Below the pieces are notes generated by a model. That model searched no databases and was not told the origin of the DNA. It saw only the letters and a list, made by a program, of their open reading frames with translations. 32,716 bases of DNA from Desulfocapsa sp. (GTDB lineage: Bacteria; Desulfobacterota; Desulfobulbia; Desulfobulbales; CG2-30-60-27), in contig DYDL01000009.1 of the NCBI GenBank assembly GCA_020717925.1, positions 1 through 32,716 on the forward strand. Reading direction: 5' to 3'. A program made the position numbers and the translations under genes. Every line of letters begins with the position of its first letter. Position 1 is the stretch's first letter. Shown here one piece after another: positions 31,224-32,716 of the stretch.

Positions 31224-31583
31224 ATGGCACAGAACGACCGGCGGGCCAACACCAGGGTTTCCTTCCAGACCACCGTGGATGTACGCTTTACCCGGGGCCA
31301 GGAATATCCAAGTTGCGCCATTGAGGATCTGAGCGTGAAGGGAGTTTTTCTGGTCGGGATCAGGGACCAGGCGGTGGGCGATAGTTGCAGCCTTACCCTC
31401 TGCCTCAGCGGCACGAGCAGCAAACTGTGCCTGCGCATCCAGGGTAAGGTGATGCGCGTTGAAGAGGGCGGCGTGGGCGTCCATTTTGTCGAGATGGATC
31501 TGGACAGCTTTTATCACTTGAAGAATATCGTCTACTTCAATGCCGAGGATCCGGATCACATCCAGGAACAGCTTGTGGAATAG
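31224..31583 (+). CDS. PilZ-domain protein (putative c-di-GMP receptor)
   Basis: NDRRANTRVSFQTTVDVRF ... IEDLSVKGVFL: RxxxR and DxSxxG PilZ motifs. Confidence 0.9.
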   Translation: MAQNDRRANTRVSFQTTVDVRFTRGQEYPSCAIEDLSVKGVFLVGIRDQAVGDSCSLTLCLSGTSSKLCLRIQGKVMRVEEGGVGVHFVEMDLDSFYHLKNIVYFNAEDPDHIQEQLVE

Positions 31584-31592
31584 GAGGTCAGC

Positions 31593-31901
31593 ATGGCCTT
31601 GATGCAGATTACCGTCATTCCCCTGGGCCTTGGTTCGCCCAGTGTCGGGGAATATGTGGCGGACATTGAAAAATTTTTGCAAAGTGAAGGGGTGGTCTGC
31701 CAGTTGCACGACATGGGCACGGTTATTCAGGGTGAGGCCGTTGAACTGCTTGCCCTCGCGGCCCGGATCCACGAACTCCCCTTCAATAAGGGCGTGCAGC
31801 GTGCCGTCACCCAGATTGTCCTGGATGACCGCCGTGATCGGACGGTCACCATCGGCGACAAGGTCGCCTCGGTGCGCGCCCGGCTGGCGCGGGCCAAATA
31901 A
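31593..31901 (+). CDS. MTH1187 family (UPF0045) thiamine-binding-like protein
   Basis: ALMQITVIPLGLGSPSVGEYVADIEKFLQSEGVVCQLHDMGTVIQGEAVELLALAARIHELPFNKGVQRAVTQIVLDDRRD. Confidence 0.88.
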   Translation: MALMQITVIPLGLGSPSVGEYVADIEKFLQSEGVVCQLHDMGTVIQGEAVELLALAARIHELPFNKGVQRAVTQIVLDDRRDRTVTIGDKVASVRARLARAK

Positions 31902-31916
31902 CCATGCGAGGGACGA

Positions 31917-32084
31917 ATGACCGCAAAACGCCGGGGCAGACCGGGCTATAAACTGCGCAAGGCGCCTTTTTTTGTCATCTTTTTTTTCGTGATCTGCATG
32001 TGCATTGGCATTGCCGCCGATGAACCGGCCCGCGTCTTTGAGCAGGCGGTGCGGGTCTGCCTGAGCTGCATAGGGATCGGCTAG
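31917..32084 (+). CDS. 55-aa CD1871A-family-like CXXC motif membrane peptide
   Basis: ATG 31917: MTAKRRGRPGYKLRKAPFFVIFFFVICMCIGIAADEPARVFEQAVRVCLSCIGIG*; C-terminal VCLSCIGIG signature; absent from ORF track because <60 aa; GAGG RBS. Confidence 0.8.
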   Translation: MTAKRRGRPGYKLRKAPFFVIFFFVICMCIGIAADEPARVFEQAVRVCLSCIGIG

Positions 32085-32087
32085 CCG

Positions 32088-32716
32088 ATGAATTTCTTGC
32101 GCAAATGGGTGCAGGCTGTCTTCAGCCTGCTGACCAACGCCTACTGGGCCTTCCCCTTTACCCGTACCATCTACCAGGGGCCCATGAAGGTGATCTGCGC
32201 GCCGGGGCTCAACTGTTACTCCTGTCCGGCCGCCACCACTTACTGCCCCATCGGCACCATCCAGCAACTTCTCGCCTCGGTGCGGCTCTCCCTGGAGAGC
32301 GGCCAATTTTTTCTCGGTTTTTCCGTGCTGGGCTTTATCGGCATCCTGGGCGGTTTTTTCGGCCGCCTGATCTGCGGCTGGGCCTGCCCCTTCGGCTTTA
32401 TCCAGGAGCTACTCTACAAGCTGCCCACCCGGAAATTCGGTGTGCCCAGGGTGCTGAACTATGGGAAATATTTTTTTCTGGCCTTTTTCGTGGTGCTCTT
32501 GCCTCTAATTGTGGTGGACGATTTCGGCGGCGGGGTCACCTGGTTCTGCAAGTACGTCTGCCCTGCCGGCACCCTGGAGGCCGGCTTGCCCATGCTGGCC
32601 ATGCAGCCCAGTCTGCGGGCCCAGGTGGGTGGGCTTTTTCTGAATAAGTTCGTGATCATGATTTTTGTCCTGGTCTGGAGCGTGCTGGCCAGCCGTCCTT
32701 TCTGCCGCACCATCTG
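32088..32716 (+). CDS. NapH-like 4Fe-4S binding membrane protein, partial, runs off right edge
   Basis: MNFLRKWVQAVFSLLTNAYWAFPFTRTIYQGPMKVICAPGLNCYSCPAATTYCPIGTIQQLL...LICGWACPFGFIQELLYKLPTRK...WFCKYVCPAGTLEAG; TM helices with CxxxCP motifs. Confidence 0.88.
   Translation, partial: MNFLRKWVQAVFSLLTNAYWAFPFTRTIYQGPMKVICAPGLNCYSCPAATTYCPIGTIQQLLASVRLSLESGQFFLGFSVLGFIGILGGFFGRLICGWACPFGFIQELLYKLPTRKFGVPRVLNYGKYFFLAFFVVLLPLIVVDDFGGGVTWFCKYVCPAGTLEAGLPMLAMQPSLRAQVGGLFLNKFVIMIFVLVWSVLASRPFCRTI

Follow-up and report, generated by a model that had tools for sequence, protein, structure and literature searches.

The right-hand end of the window (the whole stretch of 32,716 nt analysed here, which reaches the end of contig C189 in a genome of 513 contigs) raises the question of whether a frame of only 55 codons lying between two larger genes is a gene at all and, if so, what it does together with the iron-sulfur membrane protein encoded beside it. 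Behind it stands a wider question, namely how reductant is delivered to the periplasm, for instance for cytochrome c maturation, in anaerobes without DsbD/CcdA. Up to the contig end, the forward strand carries genes for a PilZ-domain protein (31224..31583; PF07238, 8.5e-11), an MTH1187-family protein of the thiamine-binding type (31593..31901), the 55-aa peptide (31917..32084) and a NapH-like 4Fe-4S membrane protein, hereafter FER (32088..32716, partial). These genes are separated by 9, 15 and 3 nt, the last two distances having been put at 16 and 4 nt in the first-pass annotation. The PilZ and MTH1187 genes probably share one operon, and a PilZ gene also lies upstream of the module in many Desulfobulbales loci.

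The first-pass annotation had described the 55-aa frame as a CD1871A-type peptide with one transmembrane (TM) segment and a C-terminal CXXC, and both parts of this description were borne out. The peptide (MTAKRRGRPGYKLRKAPFFVIFFFVICMCIGIAADEPARVFEQAVRVCLSCIGIG) combines a basic N-terminus and one TM helix with a predicted exoplasmic tail bearing a terminal CxxCxGxG; its frame is preceded by a Shine-Dalgarno-like GAGGGA and ends in VCLSCIGIG-stop (32055-32084), so that the CXXC at the end of a small protein, a feature of CD1871A, is present. The redox motif CLSCIGIG itself occupies 32058..32081. Against the CD1871A model NF040920 the peptide scored 35.6 bits (cut-off 32), covering profile positions 3-38 of 38. 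The closest relative found is Desulfobacterales bacterium CG2_30_60_27. In a comparison with the nearest genome, the peptide's own frame gave a dN/dS of 0.30 and both other frames exceeded 1, with values of 0.095 for FER and 0.29 for the MTH1187 gene. Given the CD1871A match and this frame-specific constraint, the 55-aa ORF is a real gene; a random small ORF is ruled out by the in-frame purifying selection together with conservation throughout the phylum. The family takes its name from Clostridia, and a literature search found no paper naming CD1871A.

Tabulation of neighbours across genomes confirmed that the CXXC peptide is linked to the 4Fe-4S membrane protein, and the linkage is near-absolute across the phylum. 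At E <= 1e-7 the peptide was detected in 52 of the 58 genomes of the order, and FER lay within 1.5 kb in all 60 loci retrieved by the peptide. Conversely, when FER alone was used for retrieval, 79 of 80 loci showed an intact CxxCxGxG-stop motif next to it; the remaining one stops at a contig end with a VCLECIGIG tail still visible. Over the full set, the peptide accompanies FER in about 155 of 156 FER loci, L194 being the sole locus that shows none. The order is mostly peptide-FER, with FER-peptide in L042, L048, L088, L090 and L137; thus what is kept is adjacency and not a fixed order. No match to the peptide was obtained by tblastn against plasmids. Some variation is seen in the tail: in the small genomes of family f42 (L185, L188, L193, L197, L205, L209 and L215) CLSCMGLEE or a similar sequence replaces CIGIG, and the peptides of L202 and L228 terminate in CYSCIGV(E).

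In the window, FER is open at the contig end after 209 of about 300 codons (32088-32714), and a full-length protein of 300 aa, with PF12801 and a double 4Fe-4S C-terminus, is encoded at L032:8001-8903. PF12801 (Fer4_5) was matched at 55.8 bits (4.5e-15) by the window protein and at 67.9 bits by that of L032. Among 102 FERs, 28 positions are invariant, 15 of them Cys, and two further Cys are nearly so. These cysteines belong to the C-terminal double 4Fe-4S region, to the paired motifs C96xxxC100P and C206xxxC210P, and to a loop C37-x5-C43-x2-C46-x6-C53 together with C158P. According to the positive-inside rule, the C-terminal 4Fe-4S region and the CxxxCP motifs would be cytosolic, and the C37-C53 loop and C158P would face the exoplasm, on the same side as the peptide tail.

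FER shares Fer4_5, CxxxCP and the C-terminal double 4Fe-4S region with NapH/MauN-type proteins and with the NapH-like conduits NosR and PceC, and its best NCBIfam matches are NapH and NosR. It differs from NapH/MauN, however, in that the full-length FER of L033 reached only 62.4 bits against TIGR02163 (cut-off 213), and in having the additional conserved Cys loop on the putative exoplasmic side. In the NapH-like conduits described so far, the electron acceptors are respiratory enzymes or FMN domains (PMC8238504), whereas the partner linked to FER is an exoplasmic dithiol or selenothiol peptide. A confident AF2 model of FER was obtained, with pLDDT 93.1 and pTM 0.86; Foldseek searches with it returned ferredoxin domains only and no solved match for the membrane part, and a PDB sequence search gave just one weak ferredoxin-type match. 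A FER-peptide complex was modelled from L137, in which the FER gene comes first and shares its reading frame with the peptide, the intervening TAG being read through; the peptide tail and the exoplasmic loop came out at low confidence in this model, and no docking is claimed from it.

In a set of loci the codon for the leading cysteine of the CXXC (32058-32060 in the window) is replaced by TGA. Direct reading of FER loci without a family-model match revealed the first of these, and 25 distant FER-linked loci are now known (19 from a systematic scan, L200, the four paralogous FER loci L219, L223, L224 and L227, and L207). The codon is TGA in all 25 and never TAA or TAG, which would yield UxxC, and the downstream LSCIGVG is conserved. 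Of 20 Sec-form genomes searched, a set that excludes G250, G260 and G331, 19 have a tRNA-Sec gene scoring 68-79 bits; the exception, G133, is 62% complete and yielded just one match of 58 bits, perhaps to a different tRNA. Most Cys-form genomes also have tRNA-Sec, making this test necessary and non-discriminating. In the Sec-form locus L190 (G138), FER is followed after about 350 nt by the tRNA-Sec gene itself (L190:5195-5285).

In most sequences the TGA codon is followed by a hairpin, its stem beginning 11 nt past the codon and its loop usually being GGGU. In the alignment 81% of the cells are paired, compared with 34-56% in slid versions, and the region after the TGA has a mean MFE of -10.0 kcal/mol in Sec forms, the Cys forms averaging -4.2 (p 2e-8, with no correction for relatedness). 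Only two pairs are changed on both sides, this covariation being slight because the 5' arm of the hairpin is coding. Since single-sequence z-scores are also weak (-0.3 to -2.2) and L183, L206 and L190 fit the consensus poorly, we consider the hairpin a probable SECIS element and go no further. The same z-scores and poorly fitting loci would suit a reading in which each TGA simply terminates translation and the conserved codons after it are leftovers, with no selenoprotein at all. The exclusive use of TGA, the retention of LSCIGVG after it, the presence of tRNA-Sec (next to the module in L190) and the several switches described below make this extremely improbable, and the selenoprotein form of the distant peptides is, on these sequence grounds, almost certainly real.

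In the FER tree, well-supported branches force at least four Cys/Sec switches, and Cys-form and Sec-form peptide-FER loci coexist in G250, G292 and G331 (Sec loci L227, L223, L224 and L219). Exchange between Cys and Sec is typical of redox-active and not of structural cysteines, and it pins the redox-active residue of the peptide. It also bears on the possibility that the peptide acts as a subunit in the structure or assembly of FER, its CxxC serving for example as an extra cluster ligand, with no thiol exchange. Strict linkage, tiny size and a conserved C-terminus are what such a subunit would have, but the repeated switches and the thiol-pathway genes found around the pair argue against it, and we regard it as unlikely.

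Ordinary gene calling would stop the UxxC peptides at the TGA, and six of them scored 12.6-26.8 bits against NF040920, below the cut-off that the window peptide, with its CXXC after a single TM helix, exceeds; no better NCBIfam family and no selenoprotein model was found for them. Known UxxC selenoproteins (thioredoxins and peroxiredoxin-like, DsbA-like and TlpA-like proteins), as tabulated in two reviews (PMC13188914, PMC9312934), have in common with the peptide the UxxC itself, Cys homologues, an in-frame TGA, tRNA-Sec and, probably, a 3' hairpin. In contrast to these, the peptide has no thioredoxin fold: it is built on one TM helix and bears its UxxC at eight residues from the C-terminal end. 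It is absent from the table parts consulted in these 2026 and 2022 reviews and is not among the nine new deep-Sep families (PMC12013277); it looks like an undescribed selenoprotein family, although an earlier mention elsewhere may exist. The TsoA selenoprotein motif 'LULAXC' was rejected as a relative, having a different spacing and no model match. What looked like stops at the second position in L166 and L168 proved to be matches in the wrong frame, each locus having an ordinary Cys form, and internal stops in FER (G069, G129 and G331) were dismissed as extra Sec sites: G069 has a broken frame, and the aligned portions of G129 and G331 contain no stop. In L186, L191, L195, L199 and L212 the open frame is longer, additional hydrophobic segments preceding the Sec peptide, which makes up its C-terminal end.

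Further information on the role of the pair comes from its neighbours (the names TlpA, DsbA, DsbB, CcsA, TatC and FdhE were assigned by reading the sequences and not by a family scan). TlpA-like redoxins adjoin the pair in 22 of 156 loci, in seven of which DsbA or DsbA plus DsbB is also present, with the order DsbB-DsbA-TlpA-peptide-FER in five. CcsA adjoins the pair in seven loci, and L196, from a genome without a DsbD domain (G180), is arranged as CcsA, UxxC peptide, FER and TlpA. TatC and/or FdhE stand beside the pair in five loci. The neighbours share a theme of thiol chemistry on the exoplasmic side and of maturing c-type cytochromes or exported enzymes. The majority of Cys-form loci, however, have either MTH1187 or no neighbour from a thiol pathway, a point against the thiol-reducing conduit proposed below. 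The first-pass annotation had proposed a small membrane redox relay made of the dithiol peptide and the 4Fe-4S protein, and this idea is strengthened by the UxxC forms and by the TlpA, DsbA/DsbB and CcsA neighbours. As separate observations, TatA-TatC lies directly upstream of peptide-FER in L142, L159 and L170, two of which also have FdhE, so that a connection with export or with the maturation of formate dehydrogenase may exist; and FER-peptide-TlpA is preceded in L048, L088 and L090 by a flavodoxin-like FMN reductase that contains a Cys-rich insert and is a candidate for the cytosolic electron donor.

These contexts also speak to the direction of electron flow. FER could instead oxidise the peptide dithiol and send its electrons inward, either to quinone or into the cytosol, as a DsbB-like or respiratory module; the five loci with the order DsbB-DsbA-TlpA-peptide-FER could be taken this way, and NapH-like proteins work with reductases and oxidases alike (PMC8238504). 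The DsbB of those very loci, however, already provides the oxidation, and the TlpA adjacent to the pair is of the reductase type, and both the CcsA context and the association of FER with missing DsbD/CcdA (see below) suit a reducing role. We therefore give oxidation a low probability.

The window itself has MTH1187 as the companion of the pair. Its product is a genuine member of that family, scoring 86.4 bits against TIGR00106 (cut-off 54.7) and 5e-27 against PF01910, thus passing both, and matching PDB 1lxn at 1e-11. Loci with MTH1187 beside the pair number 58 out of 156 and are spread over many families; in only one of them is TlpA present as well. Being found beside a minority of the pairs, MTH1187 is an accessory and not a core subunit; the thiamine- or other ligand-binding cytosolic partner initially suggested holds as to family but not as a general component, since most peptide-FER loci are without it. 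TM0486, of the same family, was reportedly described by Dermoun in 2010 as binding thiamin and as mattering under oxidative conditions. One could thus imagine a system that reduces a small molecule or metal on the exoplasmic side, for example a thiamine-related or sulfur compound, with MTH1187 handling the ligand inside, and the thiamin binding and the recurrence of MTH1187 in many families would be in keeping with it. As, however, MTH1187 is missing from most loci, including all listed Sec-form loci, and the neighbourhood survey found no transporter generally conserved beside the pair, we hold this to be very unlikely. In the window, where MTH1187 stands in place of TlpA, it may perhaps sense or modulate the pathway.

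DsbD and CcdA pass cytosolic electrons to exoplasmic thioredoxins via intramembrane cysteine pairs. To compare their distribution with that of FER, the sample was fixed at 297 genomes from the phylum, with FER called at E <= 1e-30 and the cross-table compiled by hand. FER is present in 37 of the 51 genomes without PF02683 (DsbD/CcdA) versus 57 of the 246 with it (Fisher p 4e-11, and 0.004 at a conservative family level, by hand tally; the genomes are not independent, and phylogeny is only partly corrected for). When 36 of the 37 FER-positive genomes without PF02683 were retested with PF13386, 31 had neither domain, and all 31 carry the cytochrome c assembly domain PF01578; the question of reductant supply is posed by such genomes. 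Many other genomes possess both systems, among them the window genome, which has DsbD_TM proteins as well as FER, and FER is therefore not a general replacement of DsbD/CcdA. A Pfam scan found PF02683 and PF13386 in neither FER nor the peptide, and no homology between the two systems was detected; FER has iron-sulfur motifs instead of membrane cysteine pairs, although the proposed job is the same, with TlpA and CcsA as neighbours and a higher frequency of FER where DsbD/CcdA are missing.

The simplest reading of the linkage, the Cys/Sec exchange, the neighbours and the distribution complementary to DsbD/CcdA, all of which, like the conserved cysteines, are read directly from the sequences, is that FER and the peptide together act as a conduit that brings thiol-reducing power across the membrane to TlpA/ResA-type proteins, and we consider this moderately probable. 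A cytosolic donor would pass electrons into the presumed clusters of FER, which would carry them across the membrane to the exoplasmic face if the direction postulated here is right. There, on the predicted topology, FER would hold the C-terminal CxxC or UxxC of the peptide and reduce its disulfide or selenylsulfide, and the peptide would in turn reduce its putative substrates, TlpA/ResA-type thioredoxins, by thiol exchange. The thioredoxins could then be used to reduce apocytochrome c, to repair disulfides and for comparable purposes. Such a conduit would be DsbD/CcdA-like in its job, with iron-sulfur clusters taking the place of the intramembrane cysteine pairs. The broader proposition, that an Fe-S wire joined to a one-helix dithiol or selenothiol peptide constitutes a new class of transmembrane thiol reductase which replaces DsbD/CcdA in many anaerobes and includes a selenoprotein family hidden by UGA, is to our mind evenly poised between true and false. 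The uncharacterised CD1871A family thereby gains a proposed role, and both this role and the source of periplasmic reductant become open to deletion and thiol-state assays.

Two further gene contexts recur around the module. In many Desulfobulbales loci (e.g. L033:8994-9434 and L104:8909-9373) a secreted protein with a bacterial SH3 domain (PF06347/PF08239) is encoded directly after FER, and in many Desulfobulbaceae (L046, L051, L067, L072, L104 and others) the chromosome partition genes ParA-ParB lie directly upstream of the module.
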